In this document: one piece after another, positions 5,408 to 29,029 of the stretch
Layout: each line of letters opens with the position of its first letter
How positions within the stretch are numbered: position 1 is the stretch's first letter
NCBI RefSeq assembly: GCF_005144475.1
Contig: NZ_SWJZ01000107.1
Span: 1-32,554, forward strand
DNA: 32,554 bases
Reading direction: 5' to 3'
DNA from: Rhodobacter capsulatus
GTDB taxonomy: Bacteria; Pseudomonadota; Alphaproteobacteria; Rhodobacterales; Rhodobacteraceae
Notes under the pieces: generated by a model
Told to the model about the DNA's origin: nothing
Database searches by the model: none
The model's input: only the letters and a program-made list of their open reading frames with translations
Made by a program: the position numbers and the translations under genes

Positions 5408-7012
5408 TCAGGCTTTGATCAACCCGCCCGCCAGCGCGGTTTCCATCAGCGCGATGGTTTCGCTCACGCCATAAAGCGCGATGAACCCGCCAAAACGCGG
5501 CCCCTGCGATTGCCCCAGCAGCACCTCGTAAAGCGCGGTGAACCAGTCGCGCAGCGGCTCGAACCCATGCGCGGTGCCGACGGCGAAAACGATCGTCTGC
5601 AGCCCTTCCGAGGGGTCTTCGAACTGCGCGTGTAGATCGGTCGCGGGCAGCGCCCTCAGCCGCGCCAACAGATCCTCCATCGCCGCGCGTTCCTTGTCCG
5701 TGGGCAGCCGGAAGGTCCGGGTCGGCGCGACGAAATCATGGAAATAGCGCACCGCAAAGCCCGCCGCCGCATCCAGATCGGGGTGGGTTTCGGGCGTGGC
5801 CTCCGGCGCATAGCGTTTGATGAAGCCCCAAAGCCCGGCCTTGTCGCTTGCCCCCGCCACGCTTGCAAGGTTCAGCAGCATCGCAAACGGCACCACCAGA
5901 TTGGACTCGGGCGGCTGGCCGCCGTGGATGTGCCAGACCGGGTTGTCGATCTGCTTCTCGACCGGCTGCGTGGCATAGGCGCGCAGCTGCTGGTGGTATT
6001 CATCCACCGCTTTCGGGATCACATCCCACCACAGCCGCTTCGCCGTCTTCGGCTTTTGATACATGAAATACGACAGGCTTTCGGTCGCCGCATAGCTCAG
6101 CCATTCGTCGATCGTCAGCCCGTTGCCCTTCGATTTCGAGATCTTCTGCCCCTGATCGTCCAAAAACAGCTCATAGGTGAAATGCTCGGGCTTGCGGCCC
6201 CCCAGCACTTCGCAGATCCCGTCATAGATCGGCGTGTTGGTCGAGTGGTCCTTGCCATACATCTCGAAATCGACATCCAGCGCGGCCCAGCGCATGCCGA
6301 AATCGGGCTTCCACTGCAGCTTCACCTTGCCGCCCGTCACCGGCAGCGTCCATTCGCGGCCGTCCTCGTCGTCAAAGGTGATCAGCCCGTTCTTCGCGTC
6401 GACATTCTTCATCGGCACATACAGAACACGGCCGGTTTCCGGGTGGATCGGCAGGAAGCAGGAATAGGTCTGCTGCCGCTCTTCGCGCAAGCTTTTCAAC
6501 ATGATCGCCATGATCGCGTCATAGCGCTCGGCGCAAAGCATCAGCATGTCGTCGAACTTGCCAGCCTTGTAATAGTCGGTCGCGCTGGCGAATTCATACT
6601 CGAACCCGAAGGTGTCGAGGAACCGGCGCAGCATGGCGTTGTTGTGATTGCCGAAGCTGTCAAACTCGCCGAACGGGTCCGGCACGGCGGTCAGCGGCTT
6701 CTGGATATTCGCGTAAAGCAGCTCCTGCTGCGGCACGTTTTCGGGCACCTTGCGCATGCCGTCCATGTCGTCCGAAAAGCACAAAAGCCGCGTCGGAATG
6801 TCCGAGATGATTTCGAACGCGCGGCGGATCATCGTCGTGCGCGCGACCTCGCCGAAGGTGCCGATATGCGGCAGACCCGACGGCCCGTAACCCGTCTCGA
6901 ACAGCACATGGCCCTTTTTCGGCGGCGCCTTTTCGTACCGTTTGAGCACCCGGCGCGCTTCCTCGAAAGGCCAGGCTTTGGAGTTCATCGCAGCGTCGCG
7001 CAGGGTGGTCAT
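5408..7012 (-). CDS. lysS: Class I lysyl-tRNA synthetase
   Basis: This 534-residue enzyme charges tRNA-Lys with lysine using ATP. It is the class I (Rossmann-fold, archaeal-type) LysRS found in many alphaproteobacteria, not the class II enzyme of E. coli. The HIGH signature is HIG at residues 49-51 in [20 protein letters not shown]. The KMSKS signature is KISKS at residues 290-294 in [20 protein letters not shown]. The class I LysRS core includes [16 protein letters not shown] and [20 protein letters not shown]. The C-terminal half is the helical anticodon-binding cage. The ATG at 7010-7012 follows GAGGA. The gene is divergent from the TerB-like gene, with 103 bases between the starts. It appears intact and is presumably the housekeeping enzyme. 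Confidence 0.96.
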
Positions 7013-8223: not shown

Positions 8224-8243
8224 AGCCCGATCAGCCGTAAAGC
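8211..8243. repeat. 17-base tandem duplication across the ends of two convergent genes
   Basis: CGATCAGCCGTAAAGC occurs at 8211-8226 and again at 8228-8243 with one base between. The first copy carries the TAA of the cysteine-rich protein gene. The second carries the TGA (reverse strand) of dacB. It looks like a recent slippage or duplication event at the gene junction. Confidence 0.85.
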
Positions 8244-9679
8244 GTCGCCCAGCGGGTGATCAGCTGGCTTTGCAAGAGCTTCGAGCGCCCGACCCAGCCG
8301 CGCGAGCCCTCCGCCTGCTCGGCGTCGCGCGATTGCGCCCGCCGCGCCAGATCGCCGGTGAAGATCGCGAATGTCAGCTCGGTCCCGTCGGGCGCCGAGA
8401 CATAGCCCGTCAGCGTCGAGACGAAATTCAGCGTGCCGGTCTTCGCATCGACGCGGATCTGCTCGCCCTTGACCTTGCCGCCCGCCTCGTCGCGCAGGTT
8501 GAACGGCTTCATCAAGCCCCGCAGCCCGACCTTCGGCCCCAAAAGCGTCACCGCCCGGACCATCTCGATCGGCGCGATCCGGTCGTCGCCGCCAAGGCCC
8601 GAATGATCGACGAACCGCGCCCGCGTGCCGCCCAGCCGACCGCTCAGCCAGTCGCTCATCGCCGCCCCCGAGGCGCCGCGCGCCGCATTCGCCCCCCGCG
8701 CCGCCGAGGCCGTCATCCCCACCGCCTCGGCGGTGATGTTGGTCGAATATTTCATCATCGAGCGCAGGATCTTCGGCAGCGCCTCCGAGGGCTGGCCGAC
8801 CAGAACCCGCGCCCCCGCAGGCAGCGCCCGCACCGGCTCGGGGGCGGGCAGATCGATGCCGCGCGCCCGCGCCAGCGTCTGGAACACGTCGCCCGCATAG
8901 GCCTCGGGCAGCCGCACCGGCAGCCAGCGGCTGCCCGCCTTGCCCAGGGCGCTTGCCGCCACCGTCCAATGTTCGCGCCCCCCCGCCTGCCGATACTCGA
9001 ACAGCGGCGCCTGCCGCGGCACCGCCGCCACATCGGCCGTATAGACCTTGGGCACATGGCGCTCAGAGCGCGCATCCATCGCCAGCGCATAGCCGCCCTT
9101 GGCGCGTTTCCACTCGAAATGGACGCGGTTGTAATTCAGGATCAGCCCGGAAATCGCCGGGTTGTAGCCCACATGCACCGGCTGATCCGCCGCGATCGCC
9201 TCGGCATAGGGCAGCGCGCCGCCCCAGACCAGAAACCGCCCGGTCACGCCGCTGACGCCCTTTTGCGCCAGCGCCGCCGCCAGATCGGCCAGCCCGTCGG
9301 TGCTCAGCGTCGGATCGCCGCCCCCCGCCAGGATCAGATCGCCCTGCACCCGCCCGCCCGAGACCGGCCCCGTCGCCAGAACCCGGGTCTGAAAGCGGAA
9401 CTGCGGCCCGAGCGTCTCCAGCGCATAAAGCGTGGTGATCGCCTTCGCCGTCGAGGCGGGCGCCATCGGCTTCGTGCCGCCGCGCGCCTCCAGCACCAGC
9501 CCGGTGCGCGCATCGGCCACCACATAGCCGACATCGCCGCCCAGCCGCGCCGCCGCGATCAGCTCCTCGCCCGACAGCATCCGCAGCGTCGCGCCCTCGG
9601 CCCGCAGCACCGCAGGCGCGGCCAGACCGGCCCCCACCCCCAGCATCCCGCCCAGGATCCCCCGCCGCGTCACGTCCAT
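8231..9679 (-). CDS. dacB: D-alanyl-D-alanine carboxypeptidase/endopeptidase, PBP4 family
   Basis: This 482-residue serine peptidase of family S13 trims or cuts peptidoglycan peptide cross-links in the periplasm. The three penicillin-binding motifs are present: S76-T-A-K79 ([18 protein letters not shown]), STN in [14 protein letters not shown], and KTG in [17 protein letters not shown] large insertion between the first two motifs is typical of PBP4. The N-terminus, [20 protein letters not shown], has twin arginines followed by a hydrophobic stretch and a likely cleavage site after LRA, which suggests Tat export. The ATG follows GGGAG. Its first 10 bases overlap the end of nadD, so the two are probably translationally coupled. 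The penultimate gene on this strand's run is thus involved in cell-wall remodelling. Confidence 0.93.
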
Positions 9680-10299
9680 GCCCGTCTCCCTTCCGTTGCG
9701 CCGCGCCAATCGCCCCCGGCCCGGATCGCGGACGAGGACAGATCCGACATCGGCATCTGCACGAAACACCAGGCGGGCAAGTCCGCGCAAGCCAGAAGCC
9801 GCGCCTGCGCCGCACGAAGCCGTGCGCGGGCAAAGATCTGTGCCGCAGGCGCCTGCCGCGCCACCATCCGATGCCCCGGCCGCGCCAGCACCCCCACCGG
9901 CACCGCCGCCAGAATCGACCGCCAGTCCTCCCAGCGGTGGAACTGCGCCAGATTGTCGGCGCCCATCAGCCAGACGAATCGCACGCCCGGATAAAGCGCC
10001 TTCAGCCGGGCCAGCGTCTGCGCCGTGTAGCGCGTGCCCAAGCCCGCCTCGAGCCCGGTGACCACCACTTTCGGATCGCGCATCACCCGCCGCGCCCGGG
10101 CGATGCGCTGCGCCATCGGCGCCGGACCGCGGGTCTTCAGCGGGTTGCCCGGGCTCACCAGCCACCAGACCTGATCCAGACCGAAGCGGCGCAGCGCCTC
10201 GCGGGTGATATGGGCGTGACCGGCATGGGCCGGGTCGAAAGACCCGCCCAGAAGGCCGATGCTCTGGCCGCGCGTGGCGATCGGAAACCCCTGTTTCAT
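9670..10299 (-). CDS. nadD: Nicotinate-nucleotide adenylyltransferase
   Basis: This 209-residue enzyme transfers AMP from ATP to nicotinate mononucleotide to form deamido-NAD in NAD biosynthesis. The nucleotidyltransferase signature [11 protein letters not shown] lies near residues 18-28, with [11 protein letters not shown] and [19 protein letters not shown] as further NadD hallmarks. The C-terminal SSSAIR corresponds to the ISSTxIR ATP-binding motif. The ATG follows GGGCAGGGG. The gene overlaps dacB by 10 bases and lies 77 bases downstream of the HNOBA-GGDEF gene. The usual alphaproteobacterial neighbours proA and rsfS are not in this window. Confidence 0.94.
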
Positions 10300-10376: not shown

Positions 10377-11444
10377 TCAGGCCTGCGGCCGCGACCCGAA
10401 GCGCAGCGGCGCGATCGTCCAGCGCCCGCGCCCGGCGCGTTTCGATTGATACATCGCCGCATCGGCCTCGGCCATCAGCTCTTCGGCGAGCGCCGGACGG
10501 CATTCGAGCGCGATCGCCACCCCGATCGAGGCCGAAATCCGGCAATCCACCCCGTCCAGCCGGATCGGTTCCTCGATCCGGCCGATCAGCCGCTCGGCCA
10601 TGCCCTCGATCATCGCCCGCTCGACCGGGCCGCGCAGCAGGATGATGAATTCGTCGCCGCCCAGCCGCGCCACCAGATCGCCGCGCCGCACCTCGTCGCG
10701 CAGCACATGCGCCGCCCGCACCAGCACCGCATCGCCCGCCGCATGGCCCAAAGTGTCATTGACCTGCTTGAAGAAATCCAGATCGAGATGCAAAAGCGCA
10801 AAGTTCCGCCGCCCGCGCGTCGCCGATTTGACCGCATGGGTCAGCGCCGCATCGAAGGCGCGCCGGTTCGCCAGCCCGGTCAGCGGATCCAGCTGCGCCT
10901 CGGTCTCGGCCTCGGCCTTGGCCAGCCGCAGCCGCCCGGTCAAGGCGGTCAGCTCGCCCAGAACCGCCGCCTTCGCCTCGGCCAGAAACAGGAATTCCAT
11001 CGCCAGATCGGAAGCGGCGAAATCCGCCTCGGTCAGGCCGAAATAGCGCACCGCCTCGGAGAGCTGGATGCCAAAGGACAGGTTCACCAGCACATCGGCC
11101 TGTTCCCCCGGCCCCAGCGCCACCGCAAGGCCGCGCAGGTTGAACATCGGATAGCGCACCAGCGTCATCACCAGCCGCCGCCCGGTCAGCGCGACGTCGC
11201 GCCCCTGTTCGGCGCCCCGGGCCCGGCGCAGGGTGAAGTGCCGGGCGAAATCCCCGCCCTCCGCCGCCCCCGGCCCGACGATCCGCGACAGCGTCGGCCC
11301 CATGGCGCGGATCCGTCCGCGCGCATCCAGCCACAGGAACATCGGCATCAGCCGCGCCAGCATCTCGGTGTTCAGCGTCAGCACCGGCTCCGGCGCGAGC
11401 GGCGACGCGAGCGGCGGCGCGGCCGCAGGCAGGATCCGGGTCAT
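10377..11444 (-). CDS. HNOBA-GGDEF diguanylate cyclase
   Basis: This 355-residue cytoplasmic protein probably makes cyclic di-GMP. Residues ~22-175 resemble the HNOBA (heme NO-binding associated) PAS-like domain of soluble guanylate cyclase. The segments are LARLMPMFLWLDARGRIRAM, VNLSFGIQLSEAVRYFGLTE, then LAMEFLFLAEAKAAVLGELT leading into the helical signalling linker. Residues ~184-350 are a GGDEF domain with an intact active site GGDEF at 262-266 in RLGGDEFIILL. The RxxD inhibitory site is R253-R-G-D256, five residues before it, so product inhibition is expected. The ATG overlaps the stop codon of the H-NOX-like gene by four bases (ATGA), strongly suggesting coupled translation and a protein complex. 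There are no membrane segments. Confidence 0.9.
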   Translation of the reverse strand: MTRILPAAAPPLASPLAPEPVLTLNTEMLARLMPMFLWLDARGRIRAMGPTLSRIVGPGAAEGGDFARHFTLRRARGAEQGRDVALTGRRLVMTLVRYPMFNLRGLAVALGPGEQADVLVNLSFGIQLSEAVRYFGLTEADFAASDLAMEFLFLAEAKAAVLGELTALTGRLRLAKAEAETEAQLDPLTGLANRRAFDAALTHAVKSATRGRRNFALLHLDLDFFKQVNDTLGHAAGDAVLVRAAHVLRDEVRRGDLVARLGGDEFIILLRGPVERAMIEGMAERLIGRIEEPIRLDGVDCRISASIGVAIALECRPALAEELMAEADAAMYQSKRAGRGRWTIAPLRFGSRPQA

Positions 11445-12031
11445 GGCGCCTCTCCCAGCTCGGGGCGGGCCAGATCGAACTGGCGCGCGACATGATAGGT
11501 GGTGAAATGCAGCTCGACCTGCACCCGCTCCACCCCCTCGCGCGGCTCGATCAGGTCGATCAGCACCAGCGCGCCGTAATCGTCGGCCATCGCCCGCATC
11601 AGCCCCGCCATCACCGCACCCCAGCCCGGGAACCGGCCCCGCACCAGCAGCGTGAACCGCCCCTGCGCTTCCGATTGCAAGGTCAGTTCCGGCAGTTCCA
11701 GATCGGGCAGCGCCATCTGCGCCCGCCCCTGCAAGTCATCAAGCGAGAACAGGAATTCAAGATAATCCGGGCCGCCGAAGCGCAAGAGCCGCCGCAGCGA
11801 TTCGGTCTGCGCCACTTCGGCGCCGATATCTTCCAGCAATTGCTCGCGGGTCTTGCCGGTCAGCCCCTCGGCCACCGACAAAAGCGCCTCGGTCGTGTCA
11901 TCGGCATAGGTCAGCATGGCCTCGAACCCCTCGGGGCCAAGGCGCAGACGATCGGCCACCTCGCGCCAGACGGCGCTGCCGTGGTGCTTGCACAGGAAAG
12001 CCTGAATGGATTTGTTGACGATGCCGAGCAT
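11441..12031 (-). CDS. H-NOX-like sensor protein lacking the heme-ligating histidine
   Basis: This 196-residue protein has the H-NOX fold. It opens with MLGIVNKSIQAFLCKHHGSA and VWREVADRLR, matching the sGC beta1 opening, and LRRLLRFGGPDYLEFLFSLD leads into the proximal helix. At the position of the invariant heme-ligating His (LDALHDH in sGC beta1, MDEVHLQ in Thermoanaerobacter H-NOX) it reads LDDLQGR, so the ligand is Gln101. The YxSxR heme-propionate motif is LVRGR at 129-133, retaining only the last Arg. Heme and NO binding through the classic site are therefore unlikely. The ATG follows GAGGAGGG, an excellent site that supports expression. The gene is coupled to the HNOBA-GGDEF cyclase. 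It may be a heme-free regulator or bind another ligand; this is inference. Confidence 0.88.
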   Translation of the reverse strand: MLGIVNKSIQAFLCKHHGSAVWREVADRLRLGPEGFEAMLTYADDTTEALLSVAEGLTGKTREQLLEDIGAEVAQTESLRRLLRFGGPDYLEFLFSLDDLQGRAQMALPDLELPELTLQSEAQGRFTLLVRGRFPGWGAVMAGLMRAMADDYGALVLIDLIEPREGVERVQVELHFTTYHVARQFDLARPELGEAP

Positions 12032-12093
12032 GGACCCTCCTCGCGCGGACCATAGCGCAACGGCTGTTAACAAACCCCCAATCTGGAAGCGTT

Positions 12094-13903: not shown

Positions 13904-14599
13904 TTACCGCCCCGACAGCCAGCCCGCCAGCCCGTCGATCGTCGGCAAAACCACATCCGCCGCGGGGGCCAGCACCTCGGCCGTCGCCGGGCCGGTCAGC
14001 ACCGCCACCGCCCGCATCCCCGCCGCGCGCGCCGCCGCCATGTCGTGCAGACTGTCGCCCACCATCGCAACCCTTGCGGGTGCAACGCCCAGATGCGCCG
14101 CAAAGGCCAGCAGCTGGCCCGGGGCGGGCTTGCCGCCAAAACCGCTGTCATAGCCCGCGATGAAGTCGAAGAAATCGCAAATCCCCTCGCGCTCCAGTTG
14201 TGCCCGCGCCGAAGATTCGCTGTCGTTCGTCGCCACCCCCAGCCGCAAACCGGCCCCCCGAAGCCCGCCCAGACAGCGCTCCAGATTGACGGCCGCCACT
14301 TGCGGGGCGCGACATGCAGCCGCATCCAGATCCCGCACCAGCGCCGAAACCGACTGCCCGGGCAGATGCGGCGCGATCAGCTCGGCCACCTCCGCCACCG
14401 TGCCCGCGATCACCGGCGAGTGGCGCTCGAACCGCCCCGCCGCCAGGTCGTAGCCCAGCACCTGCGCCAGCCGCCCGGCCAGCGTGACATCGCCCCCGGC
14501 CAGATCAAAGGTCACCCCCCGCGCCCAGGCCCCCCAGGTCGCGTCAAAGTCGAAAAGCGTTCCATCCTTGTCAAACAGGATCGCAGCGATATCAGACAC
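13904..14599 (-). CDS. HAD-family phosphatase, phosphoglycolate phosphatase-like
   Basis: This 231-residue hydrolase has all four HAD motifs. They are motif I ILFDKDGTLFDFD with nucleophile D10 and acid D12, motif II VATNDSES, motif III Lys in FGGKPAPGQLL, and motif IV MVGDSLHDMAAARAAG. A helical cap domain lies between motifs I and II. It resembles Gph (removal of phosphoglycolate) or other small phosphatases, and the substrate cannot be settled by sequence. The likely start is GTG at 14597-14599 with a weak GAGG upstream. The gene begins 9 bases after the DUF3572 gene ends, so the two probably share a transcript. Housekeeping phosphoglycolate phosphatase or a pyrimidine or sugar phosphatase are both possible. 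Confidence 0.88.
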   Translation of the reverse strand: MSDIAAILFDKDGTLFDFDATWGAWARGVTFDLAGGDVTLAGRLAQVLGYDLAAGRFERHSPVIAGTVAEVAELIAPHLPGQSVSALVRDLDAAACRAPQVAAVNLERCLGGLRGAGLRLGVATNDSESSARAQLEREGICDFFDFIAGYDSGFGGKPAPGQLLAFAAHLGVAPARVAMVGDSLHDMAAARAAGMRAVAVLTGPATAEVLAPAADVVLPTIDGLAGWLSGR

Positions 14600-14887: not shown

Positions 14888-14979
14888 TCTGTGTCACTCC
14901 TAGAATTGAAAGAGTTTGTTAACCTTTGGGTAGCCATGATAGGCTCTGCGGGCGGCAGGTTAAAGGAGCGGAACAGTTC

Positions 14980-16380
14980 ATGGCAGGGAAAATCCTGATC
15001 GTGGACGATGTGGCCACGAATCGGATCGTACTGAAGGTGAAGCTCTCGGGCGCCCGGTACGAAACGGTTCAGGCTGGCACGGGACAGGAAGCTCTGCGTC
15101 TGGTGACGCTGGAGCTGCCCGATCTTGTCTTGCTCGATGTGCAGCTGCCCGACATCAGCGGCATCGAGGTGTGCCGACGGCTGAAGTCCAACCCGCTGAC
15201 CCGGAACCTGCCGGTGATCATGGTCACGGCCTTTCCCTCGCCCGAAACCCGGCTCGAAGCGCTGCGCGCGGGCGCCGATGATTTCATCATCAAACCCTTC
15301 GAGGAACTGACGCTGCTGGCCCGGTTGCGCTCGCTGATGCGGATGCGCGAAACCGACGAGGAATTGCGGCTGCGCGAAAGCACCTGCCACGAGCTTGGCT
15401 TCACCGAGCCGCCGGTGCCCGTGGCCGAACCGCCCGCGGTGATCTGCCTTGTCGCCCCCGACCGCGAAACCTGCGTCGGCTGGAAGGCCGCGATGGCGCG
15501 GTTCCTGCCGCAAGACACGCTGCGGGTGCTGGATTACAACGAGGCGCTGACCGCCGCCGCCGAGATGCCGCCGCCCGACGCCTATGTGATCTCGGCCGAT
15601 CTGGCCCGCCCGGGCGAGGGGCTGCGGCTGATGTCGGAGCTGCGCTCGCGCGCGGGCTCGCGCCATGCGGTGATCTGCATCGCCGTGCGCGAGGGGGCGC
15701 GGGAAACCTCGGCGGTGGCGCTTGACCTTGGCGCCTCGGATCTGACGCCGGTGAAGCTGTCCGACCCGGCCTTTGCCGAAGAAGCCGCGCTGCGTCTGCG
15801 CACCCATATCTCGCGCAAGCGCCGCCATGACCGGCAGCGCGAACGGGTCGCCGACGGGCTGCGCCTTGCGCTCGTCGATCCGCTGACCGGGCTTTACAAC
15901 CGCCGCTATGCGATGCCGCATGTGGCGCGGCTGGCCGAACGCTCGCGCCACAGCGGGCGGGCTTTCGCGGTGATGGTGCTCGACATCGACCGTTTCAAAT
16001 CGGTGAACGACACCTATGGCCATGCCGCGGGCGACCGCGTGCTGATCGAGGTGGCGCGGCGGCTGACGCTGAACCTGCGCCAGGTCGATCTTGTTGCCCG
16101 CGTCGGCGGCGAGGAATTCCTGATCGCCATGCCCGAAACCTCGCTGGACGCCGCGCGCGCCACCGCCGAACGGCTGTGCCGGGTGATGGAGGAAACGCCG
16201 TTCGAGTTGCATGACGGGCATGCGCTGCGCATCACCGTGTCGATCGGGCTGGCGCTTGGCGGCGGCCATGGCGGCACCGGCACCGTCGAACAGGTGATCA
16301 ACCAGGCCGACCACGCGCTGATGAGCTCCAAGGCCGAGGGGCGCAATCAGGTCAAGATCTTCAAGCTGCCTGCCGCCTGA
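14980..16380 (+). CDS. pleD: PleD-like response regulator diguanylate cyclase (REC-REC-GGDEF)
   Basis: This 466-residue protein has the PleD layout. REC1 (residues ~4-120) is intact, with the acidic pair D9-D10 in ILIVDDVATN, phosphoacceptor D53 in LVLLDVQLPD, T83 and K105. REC2 (~152-270) is degenerate: the acceptor position is S205 in DAYVISADLAR, as expected of an adaptor domain used for dimerisation. The GGDEF domain has GGEEF at 376-380, compatible with activity, and an RxxD inhibitory site at R367-Q-V-D370. Phosphorylation by an unlinked kinase should activate cyclic di-GMP synthesis. In Caulobacter PleD controls polar development. The ATG follows AAAGGAG at ~11 bases. It is divergent from the DUF3572 gene; divK is not in this window. 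Confidence 0.93.
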   Translation: MAGKILIVDDVATNRIVLKVKLSGARYETVQAGTGQEALRLVTLELPDLVLLDVQLPDISGIEVCRRLKSNPLTRNLPVIMVTAFPSPETRLEALRAGADDFIIKPFEELTLLARLRSLMRMRETDEELRLRESTCHELGFTEPPVPVAEPPAVICLVAPDRETCVGWKAAMARFLPQDTLRVLDYNEALTAAAEMPPPDAYVISADLARPGEGLRLMSELRSRAGSRHAVICIAVREGARETSAVALDLGASDLTPVKLSDPAFAEEAALRLRTHISRKRRHDRQRERVADGLRLALVDPLTGLYNRRYAMPHVARLAERSRHSGRAFAVMVLDIDRFKSVNDTYGHAAGDRVLIEVARRLTLNLRQVDLVARVGGEEFLIAMPETSLDAARATAERLCRVMEETPFELHDGHALRITVSIGLALGGGHGGTGTVEQVINQADHALMSSKAEGRNQVKIFKLPAA

Positions 16381-25071: not shown

Positions 25072-28000
25072 TCACCCCGCCAGCAAAGCCGCGTTGCCGC
25101 CCGCCGCCGTCGTGTCGACGCACAGATGCCGCTCATGCGCGACATGGGCAAGGTCGGGCGCCGCGGTGATCAGCGGCACCAGCGCCCCGGGCCGGGCGGC
25201 CAGCGCGCGGGCATAGGCACGGCCGGTTTCGGCCTCGCCCCACCACAGCACGCCCGCCAAAGGATCCAGCGTTTCCAAGGCCTTGGCGGGCACGGCCCCG
25301 GTTGCCTGCACCGCCTGCCCGCCCAAGACCACAACCGCCGCCGCCTGCGCTGCCGCCGCGTCACGCCCCGGTCCAAGGCAGAGGATCGGGCCGCGCAGAT
25401 GCCGCGTCAGCCGGTTCAGCTCGCCCGTCGGACCGGGCAGGAAGATCTCGGCCAGCTGCGTTTCCACCGCTTCGGGCAGAACCGGCGTCGCCGCCTGCAT
25501 CCAGCCGCCAGTCGCCGCGACCGGCTCGGGCGCATGGAAGCGGCCCAGATACAAAGGCCCGCCCGCCTTCGGCCCGGTGCCCGAAAGCCCCTCGCCGCCA
25601 AAGGGCTGGCTGCCCACCACCGCGCCGATCTGGTTGCGGTTCACATAAATGTTGCCCGCCCGGATCGTCTCGGCCACGGTTTCGACGCGGGCATCGATGC
25701 GCGAATGCAGCGCGAAAGTCAGCCCATAGCCACGCGCATTGATCGCCGCGATCACCGCGGGCAGGTCCTCGGCGGCGAATGTTGCAAGATGCAACACCGG
25801 CCCGAAGATTTCACGCGGAAGATCGGCAATGCCGCTGACGCGCAGCAGCGCCGGGGCAACGAAATGCCCGCCTTCGGGCGCAGTGCTGCGGTGCAGGAGG
25901 CGCCCCGCATTCTCGGCCAGATAGGCCTCGATTCCGGCCCGGGCCTCGGCGTCGATCACCGGGCCGACATCGGTCGACAGATGCGCCGGATCGCCCGAAA
26001 CCAGCTCGTCCATCGCGCCTTTCAGCATCTCGATCAGATGGGGCGCGATGTCCTCCTGCACGTAAAGGCAGCGCAGCGCCGAGCAGCGCTGCCCGGCCGA
26101 ACGGAAGGCCGAGGCGACGACATCGCGCACCGCCTGTTCGGGCAGCGCCGTGCTGTCGACGATCATCGCATTCAGCCCGCCGGTTTCCGCGATCAGCGGC
26201 GTGCCGGGCGCCAGATGCTCGGCCATCGTGCGGGCGATGATCTGCGCGGTCTCGGTCGAGCCGGTGAAAACCACACCCTTGACGCGCGGATCGCGGGTCA
26301 GCGCGGCGCCGACGGTCGGGCCGTCGCCGGGCAGCAACTGCAGCGCCGCCGCGGGAACCCCGGCCCGATGCAGCAGCCGCACGGCAAGGGCGGCGATCAC
26401 CGGGGTCTGCTCGGCGGGCTTCGCGAGCACCGCATTGCCCGCCATCAAACCCGCCGCGATCTGGCCGGTGAAGATCGCGAGCGGGAAGTTCCACGGGCTG
26501 ATCGCCACGACGGCACCGCGCGGGGAACGCGGGTCCGCGGCGCCCTCGGCCGCATAATAGCGCAGAAAATCAACAGCCTCGCGCAGCTCCGACACGGCAT
26601 CGCCAAGCGTCTTGCCCGCTTCCTGCGCCAACGCGGCAAAGATCGGACCGAAGCTTTCCTCATACAGATCGGCGGCGCGGCGCAGCACCGCCGCACGCTC
26701 TGCCGCGGGCGACGACCAGACCTGCGCGGCATCGAGAGCCACCGCCACCGTCGCCGCATCGGCCTCGGTCACCTGCGCCACAACCGCCCCGCTGGCCGGG
26801 TTCCGCACCGGGCGCAGCGTGCCCGAGACCGGCCCGGCCACGATCGGCGCGGCGTCAGGCAGGGTCACGGCCCGCGCGGTTTCGATCCGCGCCAGAACCT
26901 CGGGGTCGCTCAGATCGAAGCCCTGCGCATTGACCCGGCCCGCACCGAAAAGATCCGCAGGCGCCAGAAGCCCGCGCGGTGCCCGCGCCATGGGCAGGGC
27001 CGCAAAGGGACAGGCCGCGACCTCACTTGGCGGCACGCTTTCGTTGACGATCTGATTGACGAAAGACGAATTCGCGCCGTTCTCCAGAAGCCGCCGCACC
27101 AGATAGGCGAGCAGGTCGCGATGCGCCCCCACCGGCGCGTAAATCCGGCAACGCCCGCCGGTTTCGCGCAGCACGATGTCATGCAGCCGCGCGCCCATCC
27201 CGTGCAGGCGCTGGAACTCGAACGGCCGTCCCGCGGCCATCTCCAGCACCGCCGCGACCGTATGTGCATTATGCGTCGCAAATTGCGGATAGATGCAATC
27301 GTCCAGCCCGAAAAGCTTTGCCGCAAGGCAGATATAGGCGACATCGGTGCCGGTTTTCGAGGTGAAAAGCGGAAAGCCCGGATGGCCCTCGACCTGGGCG
27401 CGCTTCATTTCGGCGTCCCAATAGGCGCCCTTCACCAGCCGGATGTTGATCCGCCGCCCGGTCGCCCGCGCCATCGCGGCCAGCGCGTCGATCGCCGCCC
27501 CGGCGCGCTTGCCATAGGCCTGCACCACGGCGCCAAAGCCCTGCCAGCCCGCGGTTTCGGGATCGGCCATCACCGCCGCCATGACGCGCAAGGACAGCGC
27601 CAGCCGGTCCTGTTCCTCGGCGTCGATGTGCAGCGCGATCCCCGCCGCCGCCGCCGCCCGCGCCAGATCGCGCACGACCGGCACAAGCTCGGCCATCACC
27701 CGCGCCTCCTGCGCCACCTCGTAGCGCGGATGCAGCGCCGACAGCTTGATCGAAATCCCCGGATTGGCCGCGATCGAGCCCTTGGTCGCCGCCGTGCCGA
27801 TCGCCGTGATCGCCTGCGCATAGGCCCGCCGGTAGCGGTCTGCATCGGCCCGGGTCAGCGCCGCCTCGCCCAGCATGTCATAGCTGAAGGTGTAACCCTC
27901 GGCCTCGCGCTTTTGCGCGCGTTCCAAAGCCTTTTCAATGGTTTCGCCCAGAACGAACTGGCGGCCCATCTCGCGCATCGCCTGCCCCACGGCGGCGCGG

Positions 28001-28455
28001 ATGACCGGCTCGCCCAGCCGCCGCATCGCGCCGCGCAGGGTTCCGGCGATGCCGCCCGCGCCATCGTCCAGCACCTTGCCCGTCAGCATCAGCGCCCAGG
28101 TCGAGGCATTGACCAGCGAGGAGGCCGCCGTGCCCAGATGCTTGCCCCAGTCCGAGGGGGCGATCTTGTCCTCGATCAGCGCGTCGATCGTCGCGGTGTC
28201 GGGCACGCGCAGCATCGCCTCGGCCAGACACATCAGCGCCACGCCCTCGCGCGTCGACAGCCCGTATTGCGCGAGGAAATGCTCCATCAGGCTTGGCTTC
28301 GCCTCGGCCCGGATCCGCGCCACCAGATCGGCGCCGCGCGCCGCGATCCGGTCAAGCTGCGGCTGCGACAGCGCCGCCTGCGCGACAAGCGCCGCCAGAA
28401 CCTCGGCCTCGGGGGCGAATTTGGCCTGCGGGCCAAGGGCGGAAAGATCGGTCAT
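25072..28455 (-). CDS. putA: Bifunctional proline dehydrogenase / P5C dehydrogenase
   Basis: This 1127-residue enzyme oxidises proline to glutamate in two steps. FAD-dependent proline dehydrogenase occupies residues ~130-430 (ISIKLSALHPRYEVAQEARV, LHIDAEEQDRL, RLVKGAYWDAEMKRAQVEG). The NAD-dependent aldehyde dehydrogenase lies at ~530-1000 (ISPWNFPLAIFTGQIAAGLM, GSTE, AETGGLNAMIVDS with the general base Glu, and SAGQRCSALRCLYVQ with the nucleophile Cys near ~790). A C-terminal ~100-residue region follows. The N-terminus starts directly with the helical arm, with no ribbon-helix-helix DNA-binding domain, so PutA is not its own repressor here. The ATG follows CAGGAG. The divergent putR should provide activation in response to proline. 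Confidence 0.96.
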   Translation of the reverse strand: MTDLSALGPQAKFAPEAEVLAALVAQAALSQPQLDRIAARGADLVARIRAEAKPSLMEHFLAQYGLSTREGVALMCLAEAMLRVPDTATIDALIEDKIAPSDWGKHLGTAASSLVNASTWALMLTGKVLDDGAGGIAGTLRGAMRRLGEPVIRAAVGQAMREMGRQFVLGETIEKALERAQKREAEGYTFSYDMLGEAALTRADADRYRRAYAQAITAIGTAATKGSIAANPGISIKLSALHPRYEVAQEARVMAELVPVVRDLARAAAAAGIALHIDAEEQDRLALSLRVMAAVMADPETAGWQGFGAVVQAYGKRAGAAIDALAAMARATGRRINIRLVKGAYWDAEMKRAQVEGHPGFPLFTSKTGTDVAYICLAAKLFGLDDCIYPQFATHNAHTVAAVLEMAAGRPFEFQRLHGMGARLHDIVLRETGGRCRIYAPVGAHRDLLAYLVRRLLENGANSSFVNQIVNESVPPSEVAACPFAALPMARAPRGLLAPADLFGAGRVNAQGFDLSDPEVLARIETARAVTLPDAAPIVAGPVSGTLRPVRNPASGAVVAQVTEADAATVAVALDAAQVWSSPAAERAAVLRRAADLYEESFGPIFAALAQEAGKTLGDAVSELREAVDFLRYYAAEGAADPRSPRGAVVAISPWNFPLAIFTGQIAAGLMAGNAVLAKPAEQTPVIAALAVRLLHRAGVPAAALQLLPGDGPTVGAALTRDPRVKGVVFTGSTETAQIIARTMAEHLAPGTPLIAETGGLNAMIVDSTALPEQAVRDVVASAFRSAGQRCSALRCLYVQEDIAPHLIEMLKGAMDELVSGDPAHLSTDVGPVIDAEARAGIEAYLAENAGRLLHRSTAPEGGHFVAPALLRVSGIADLPREIFGPVLHLATFAAEDLPAVIAAINARGYGLTFALHSRIDARVETVAETIRAGNIYVNRNQIGAVVGSQPFGGEGLSGTGPKAGGPLYLGRFHAPEPVAATGGWMQAATPVLPEAVETQLAEIFLPGPTGELNRLTRHLRGPILCLGPGRDAAAAQAAAVVVLGGQAVQATGAVPAKALETLDPLAGVLWWGEAETGRAYARALAARPGALVPLITAAPDLAHVAHERHLCVDTTAAGGNAALLAG

Positions 28456-28564
28456 GGTCGGGCACTCCTGGGGCGTTTCCCCGATGATACCAGCAAGGCG
28501 CTGGACGATGTGACCATTCAAAGCCATCATGACAGGCGATCCGACCAAAGATAGGGCCAAAAAC
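28456..28564. promoter_or_regulatory. Divergent putA/putR control region with palindromic candidate operator
   Basis: CCAGCAAGGCGCTGG at 28490-28504 is a 15-base palindrome with perfect 5-base arms, the size of an Lrp-family site. On the putA strand TATCAT (28484-28489) would be a good -10, but no -35 stands at 17 bases (CACATC), consistent with activator dependence. I infer that PutR binds here to switch on putA. Confidence 0.45.
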
Positions 28565-29029
28565 GTGACCGACCCGATTGACGCCACCGACCGGCGCATC
28601 CTGCACGAGCTGTGCGCGAACGCCCGGATTCCGGTCACCGAGCTTGCCCGCAAGGTCGGGTTGTCGAAAACCCCGGTCGCGGCGCGCATCCGCGCGATGG
28701 AGGAGATGGGGCTGATCACCGGCTACCGCGCGATGCTCTCGCCGATCCAGCTGGGGCTGATCCATGTCACCTATGTCGAGGTGAAACTGTCCGACACAAG
28801 GCAAAAGGCGCTGGAGCAGTTCAACGCCGCGGTGCGCGAAATCCCCGAGGTCGAGGAATGCTACATGATCGCCGGGGGCTTCGATTACCTGCTGAAGGTG
28901 CGCAGCCATGACATCGCGGAATACCGCAAGATCATGGGGGAGAAGCTTTCGGCGCTACCGCATGTGGCGGCAACCTCGAGCTATGTCGCGATGGAAGCGG
29001 TGGTGGAGCAGAACTCCCCCAGCCTGTGA
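28565..29029 (+). CDS. putR: Lrp/AsnC-type regulator of proline catabolism
   Basis: This 154-residue regulator has an N-terminal winged helix-turn-helix (IDATDRRILHELCANARIPV, TELARKVGLSKTPVAARIRA) and a C-terminal RAM ligand-binding domain (VPE-like VREIPEVEECYMIAGGFDYL, LSALPHVAATSSYVAMEAVV). The Lrp-type PutR of R. capsulatus activates putA with proline as signal, and this gene's divergent position next to putA fits that. The start is chosen as GTG at 28565 with AGGG upstream. ATG at 28529 would add 12 residues but has no ribosome binding site. The gene ends 2 bases before the convergent selD. Confidence 0.92.
   Translation: MTDPIDATDRRILHELCANARIPVTELARKVGLSKTPVAARIRAMEEMGLITGYRAMLSPIQLGLIHVTYVEVKLSDTRQKALEQFNAAVREIPEVEECYMIAGGFDYLLKVRSHDIAEYRKIMGEKLSALPHVAATSSYVAMEAVVEQNSPSL

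Follow-up and report, generated by a model that had tools for sequence, protein, structure and literature searches.

In the window, by which we mean the whole analyzed stretch of 32,554 nucleotides from Rhodobacter capsulatus, an hnoX-like gene encodes an H-NOX (HNOB) protein of 196 residues without the proximal heme-ligating His. This protein has lost the ligand and the YxSxR motif, keeps the H-NOX fold, is under purifying selection, shares a conserved pairing with an intact diguanylate cyclase, and falls into a common clade with the H-NOX of Dinoroseobacter shibae. In the reading that we favor, at somewhat better than even chances, it is a Group 5-type H-NOX of the Rhodobacteraceae that has kept the fold and the coupling to a dedicated HNOBA-GGDEF-type cyclase, dropped the Fe-His switch, and holds the cyclase inhibited. 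The ligand-less group itself is already described (PMC8738867, PMC5588039). Added here are the dN/dS ratios in the cluster of the window, the 13 ligand changes on the tree, the place of D. shibae in the His-bearing minority, and HNOBA in 28 of 32 partners.

The hnoX frame lies on the reverse strand (11441..12031) and has no internal stops in translation. A Shine-Dalgarno sequence read from the DNA, AGGAGG (12036..12041, reverse strand), stands 4 nt 5' of its ATG. The initial annotation had claimed a very strong ribosome binding site and no frameshift for this gene, and both observations hold. The protein scores 67.3 bits against the PF07700 HNOB profile (cut-off 25.5), which assigns it to the fold family. 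Its AlphaFold2 model, calculated with an input alignment of 40 window and named sequences, has a pLDDT of 91, and the top PDB match by Foldseek is the Nostoc H-NOX 2o09 (TM 0.79/0.84, rmsd 2.4 Å, 26% identity), so the predicted structure has the H-NOX fold as well. Residues 90-107 of the model form the counterpart of helix αF, and Q101 lies within it. Our scan 5' of hnoX found no sigma-70-like promoter, and no near-identical DNA of the locus was found among plasmids. Upstream of hnoX, at 12067-12081 on the forward strand, is a match with two mismatches to TTAA-N7-TTAA, a CtrA-type motif; the whole window has 15 matches of this quality where 6.7 are expected, and no better one.

The position of the lost ligand was established by two alignments. 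A phmmer search against the PDB sets Q101 (codon CAG, 11729..11731, reverse strand) on H105 of Nostoc Alr2278 (4iah/2o09) in an alignment that runs ungapped from residue 100 across YxSxR, and a MAFFT alignment of 157 clade members puts Q101 in the same ligand column. The initial assignment of Gln101 to the proximal His position is confirmed by this. YxSxR had been read as LVRGR. The loss of the motif stands, but the register was off by one residue: Tyr134, Ser136, and Arg138 of Alr2278 align to V130, G132, and F134 by both methods, in the degenerate segment V130-R-G132-R-F134 (11630..11644, reverse strand), so the Arg of the motif is lost as well. Of the features of a heme gas sensor, the window protein has Gln101 in place of the proximal His on αF and V-R-G-R-F in place of YxSxR.

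The stop codon of hnoX and the start codon of the partner cyclase (ATG at 11444) share four bases (ATGA). The cyclase (10377..11444, reverse strand) has 355 residues, with a long helix at 147-185 and a GGDEF domain at 183-340. The GGDEF active-site motif (residues 262-266; 10647..10661, reverse strand) and the RxxD inhibitory-site motif five residues N-terminal of it (residues 253-256; 10677..10688, reverse strand) are both intact, in agreement with the earlier claim of coupling to a cyclase with intact active-site motifs. A same-strand GGDEF frame accompanies hnoX in 156 of the 157 clade loci, whereas any GGDEF frame is found in 5 of the 57 loci outside the clade. The contig of the sole clade locus without one (L075) stops about 250 bases beyond the match. 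Of the clade loci, 107 have an overlap of the ATGA type. Among the 156 partners, 155 have an intact GGDEF motif and 153 an intact RxxD. The model of the window cyclase shows an alpha/beta domain at the N terminus, followed by the helix 147-185 and GGDEF. PAS-GGDEF proteins (5xgd) are the top hits for it in the PDB, and soluble guanylate cyclase (sGC) alpha chains appear further down the list. Of 32 aligned partners, 28 have a match to the PF07701 HNOBA profile at E≤1 (the strongest at 5e-9); the window's own partner is not one of them. HNOB, HNOBA, and a cyclase are the component parts of sGC (PMC8196705), and the HNOBA matches in most partners suggest that the pair resembles a split sGC with a GGDEF output.

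The other genes near the pair include a second diguanylate cyclase of the PleD-like type, with a response-regulator receiver and a GGDEF domain (14926-16380, forward strand), which is separated from the H-NOX pair by about 3 kb that include a HAD hydrolase gene (13904-14599). The H-NOX pair of Phaeobacter sp. G2 likewise has a cyclase, a HAD hydrolase, and a DUF3572 gene nearby. The genes for a PutA-type proline dehydrogenase/aldehyde dehydrogenase (25072-28719), an S13 D-Ala-D-Ala carboxypeptidase (8231-9760), a cytidylyltransferase-like protein (9670-10299), and a class I lysyl-tRNA synthetase (5408-7012), all on the reverse strand, are ordinary neighbors.

The ligand-less state extends far beyond the window. 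All 18 genomes of its genus have one HNOB match, with Gln at the ligand site in 14, Pro in 3, Arg in 1, and His in none. HNOB was found in 296 of 394 Rhodobacteraceae genomes of the family sample, and in 106 of the 150 genomes (149 genera) of a second sample in which every match was listed. The ligand site was read in 120 loci covering the matches of the second sample, two pieces of one broken gene being counted as one locus, and clade membership was assigned by a FastTree tree with moderate support for the clade (0.867). The cyclase-linked clade occurs in 102 genomes, two of them from the genus of the window. Their ligand residues are Pro (74), His (8), Gln (4), Asn (4), Arg (3), Thr, Ala, and Gly (2 each), and Lys, Ser, and Glu (1 each), so that across the sampled Rhodobacteraceae genera the proximal ligand is absent in 94 of 102 genomes with a cyclase-linked H-NOX. 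Gln, the residue to which the initial annotation drew attention, thus occupies the site in 4 of the 102 clade genomes and in 14 of 18 within the genus. It is a variant at the level of the genus, within a ligand-less state that spans the family and is already published.

Outside the clade, His is at the ligand site in 55 of 57 sequences and YxSxR is present in 53. Given 0 of 18 with His in the genus, the loss is not due to chance. The two non-clade exceptions are L061, with Gln, and L071, a broken copy that resembles a clade member with His and was left out of the clade counts. L061 (G102:C4:118741-119217) keeps YxSxR and, judged by its sequence, is apparently an independent ligand loss. Among the 157 clade members, His is present in 13 and YxSxR in none; this sample leans to high-scoring matches, so 13 of 157 is not a frequency. 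Nor is the 14 of 80 with His among the 80 top-ranking named loci, as their ranking followed similarity to a sequence that has the His. HNOB was found in 18 of 385 genomes of a class-wide sample. The clade members there (L001, L083, L110, and L141) are all from Rhodobacteraceae, and the matches from other families that were placed, 12 in number (L129-L140), fall outside the clade. One more HNOB match, L142, is weak, comes from another family within the class, and was missed by our profile. A second HNOB outside the clade is present in 13 of the 102 clade genomes, whose clade copies carry Pro in 12, Thr in 1, and His in none. As an indication that the second H-NOX replaces the clade copy, the 0 of 13 is uninformative, given 8 of 102 with His overall.

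We followed the ligand changes on a quick IQ-TREE tree of 232 rows from which sites 101 and 132 were removed; L215 was excluded, 12 of the 80 named sequences were dropped as duplicates, and our trees are without P. denitrificans. The fewest changes between His and non-His on the best tree are 13, with only three independent pairs on well-supported branches, and the count is blind to direction, so that gain and loss of His look alike. Residue 132, the Ser position of YxSxR, is Trp in 7 of the 13 His members and in 5 of the remaining 144 (Fisher 2.8e-6, the lowest value in 1864 tests). We do not retain this covariation, as the three independent well-supported pairs, too few for a test, gave averages of 0.5 in the same way, 0.6 in the other, and 2.0 with no difference. 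A link between a kept His and NO production is also unsupported: nitrite reductase, called as NirK above the cut-off or a NirS-family hit stronger than 1e-90 and tallied by eye, is present in 5 of 8 His genomes versus 35 of 94 non-His genomes (Fisher p 0.26). In the genome of the window itself, NirK-family matches are absent, and the NirS family gives only a weak, partial hit of 27 bits. It is possible, although we consider it doubtful, that this single clade, coupled to its partner throughout, has repeatedly switched the heme ligand off, and perhaps on, so that the same H-NOX/HNOBA-GGDEF pair serves as an NO sensor in some members and in others as a controller independent of heme and locked in the NO-on, or His-off, form. 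If true, the clade would offer a natural series of conversions from gas sensor to constitutive regulator.

An alignment error, with another His as the real ligand, is hardly credible. The window protein does have four His residues (16, 17, 175, and 180), but these are shared by only 7, 7, 4, and 3 of the 18 genus members, whereas 13 clade members including D. shibae have His exactly in the column in which phmmer, without gaps, and the 157-row alignment place Q101. Binding of heme without a His ligand or through another residue, with NO still sensed, is unlikely but better founded. A His-to-Gly H-NOX mutant was solved in the Fe(II)CO state (2kil), and within the clade the ligand site changes between His and other residues. 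Pro114, presumably at a heme-contacting position, is invariant in 157 of 157 clade members. A possible substitute ligand in the relatives is residue 2, which is His in 120 of the 144 ligand-less members and in 8 of 18 within the genus, and is Leu in the window protein. Against continued heme binding, YxSxR is wholly gone in the window and absent from all 157 clade members, and we found no column with His or Cys kept in at least 14 of the 18 genus members that could serve as a substitute axial ligand.

Decay of hnoX on its way to loss is equally hard to believe as such an alignment error. Copies with an in-frame stop or a split gene in three sampled relatives (L071, L207, and L215) indicate occasional loss, and 44 of the 150 sampled genomes have no HNOB match. 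However, dN/dS, calculated with an NG86 script of our own for the six pairs formed by the window and the three congeners closest to it, is 0.060-0.118 in hnoX and 0.185-0.281 in the cyclase gene, a gap partly due to the lower dS in the latter. The hnoX value already contradicts decay, and the gene is free of internal stops in 18 of 18 genus genomes, has a strong Shine-Dalgarno sequence, and overlaps the cyclase start. RRLLRF, ADDYG, P114, W22, Y42, and G143 are nearly or fully invariant among the ligand-less members. The earlier opinion that this is not a decaying gene is therefore upheld by the dN/dS, by these clade-wide motifs, and by the partner in 156 of 157 loci. The cluster of the window thus shows no sign of decay. 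More distant pairs have higher dN/dS, the highest at least 0.52 (L001/L008) among the pairs listed, and their dS is in many cases large or undefined. The low dN/dS and the many residues conserved across the clade would also suit a protein whose former heme pocket or surface binds another signal, such as a small molecule, another tetrapyrrole, a metal, or another protein, to switch the cyclase. Heme-independent redox control has been reported for the Vibrio cholerae H-NOX (PMC8738867, PMC7108781). We regard such a signal as rather improbable, though less so than retained heme. No cofactor candidate was found, and Cys is not conserved: the richest column, residue 130, has Cys in 70 of the 144 ligand-less clade members and Val throughout the genus (18 of 18), and the sole Cys of the window protein (residue 14) is shared by 6 of 18, which argues against a zinc or disulfide route.

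The favored reading, a ligand-less H-NOX that holds its cyclase inhibited, draws on studied relatives. Lee-Lopez and Yukl (2022; PMC8738867) describe Group 5 as a very large H-NOX cluster seeded by the Paracoccus denitrificans protein (Pden_3719), with fewer than 10% having the proximal His, most having Pro, Cys not conserved, and a trigger called unknown. Our clade likewise has few His and mostly Pro (8 and 74 of 102; the window itself has Gln) and no conserved Cys, and the agreement of 8 of 102 with the published figure suggests that the window protein is a further member of this kind. The P. denitrificans H-NOX is a homologue of it, aligning at 37.8% over 96%. Pro is at the ligand site (ELPGR) in P. 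denitrificans HAMBI_2443. The H-NOX proteins of R. sphaeroides and P. denitrificans are noted as lacking the ligand in PMC5588039, citing Iyer 2003 and Plate and Marletta 2013. The genome G052 is 100% identical, at the same coordinates, to a stretch of the D. shibae DFL12 plasmid pDSHI03; it is thus D. shibae, and its single HNOB match (L157) is the D. shibae H-NOX. This protein is inside the clade with His in the ligand column (LDDLHDRARLA). Our search of the open-access literature found no statement placing it as a His-bearing member of Group 5, and no biochemistry on any ligand-less member.

In heme H-NOX proteins, NO breaks the Fe-His bond and shifts αF (PMC8196705), and the NO-bound D. 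shibae H-NOX is reported to inhibit Dgc1 (PMC8846402, PMC7232146). In P. denitrificans, biofilm is underproduced by an hnoX mutant and overproduced by a mutant that has neither dgc gene; the authors propose that DgcA is inhibited by H-NOX (PMC5588039). As c-di-GMP was undetectable for the P. denitrificans authors (PMC12582929), this inhibition is deduced indirectly. Both author sets frame the protein as an NO sensor (PMC5588039, PMC12582929). From the D. shibae inhibition, these phenotypes, and the Fe-His breakage, we propose a His-off resting state for ligand-less proteins. The window H-NOX would bind the N-terminal domain of its partner cyclase directly and keep it in an inhibited state, as the NO-bound H-NOX does in the His-bearing D. 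shibae. With Gln here and Pro in most relatives, the protein would be permanently in the His-off form, and cyclase output would be set by the amount of H-NOX or some other signal, independently of heme and NO. The D. shibae H-NOX gene is under quorum sensing via the CtrA phosphorelay (PMC7232146), and in R. capsulatus the cyclase gene rcc02629 is described as being under CtrA control (PMC9143464); such links would suit control by amount. The repurposed or structural regulator proposed in the initial annotation fits the P. denitrificans phenotype, where the H-NOX has Pro (PMC5588039, PMC12582929). The further suggestion of a heme-free sensor may hold, but the Fe(II)CO structure of the His-to-Gly mutant (2kil) makes it less certain.

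Some points count against the inhibited-cyclase reading. A locked-on form leaves the retention of a separate conserved protein unexplained, and the interchange of His and non-His in the clade may reflect a return of heme binding or its persistence without the ligand. The dN/dS of distant pairs and the missing HNOBA match in the window's own partner also weigh here. D. shibae H-NOX, a clade member that has kept the His, provides a natural control, which makes what a ligand-less H-NOX responds to testable. The ligand is absent in 94 of 102 genomes although such proteins carry the name heme NO-binding, and NO-sensing models built on such proteins (P. denitrificans, and R. capsulatus by homology) need a direct heme test.

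Compared with known systems, the window pair is most like those of its own family. It shares with P. denitrificans and Group 5 the missing proximal His, and the P. denitrificans hnoX also overlaps a GGDEF gene (PMC5588039). It differs in having Gln, as do 14 of the 18 in its genus including the window, where Group 5 has mostly Pro, and in Leu at residue 2, where most ligand-less members have His. D. shibae H-NOX/Dgc1 belongs to the same clade and has the same gene pair, but its H-NOX keeps the His and is 32% identical to the window protein. Nostoc Alr2278 (2o09), the closest solved fold, has His105 and YxSxR, unlike the window protein. Soluble guanylate cyclase is built of the same HNOB, HNOBA, and cyclase parts, which here are two proteins with a GGDEF output. 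Its alpha chain has a pseudo-H-NOX, an H-NOX fold without heme binding (PMC8196705), as may hold for the window protein too; human sGC alpha is without the His and moth sGC alpha without YxSxR (PMC8196705). The sGC alpha domain is fused, dimerized with a heme-bearing beta chain, and has an N-terminal extension in its pocket (PMC8196705), whereas the window H-NOX is a separate protein with no extension and a GGDEF partner.
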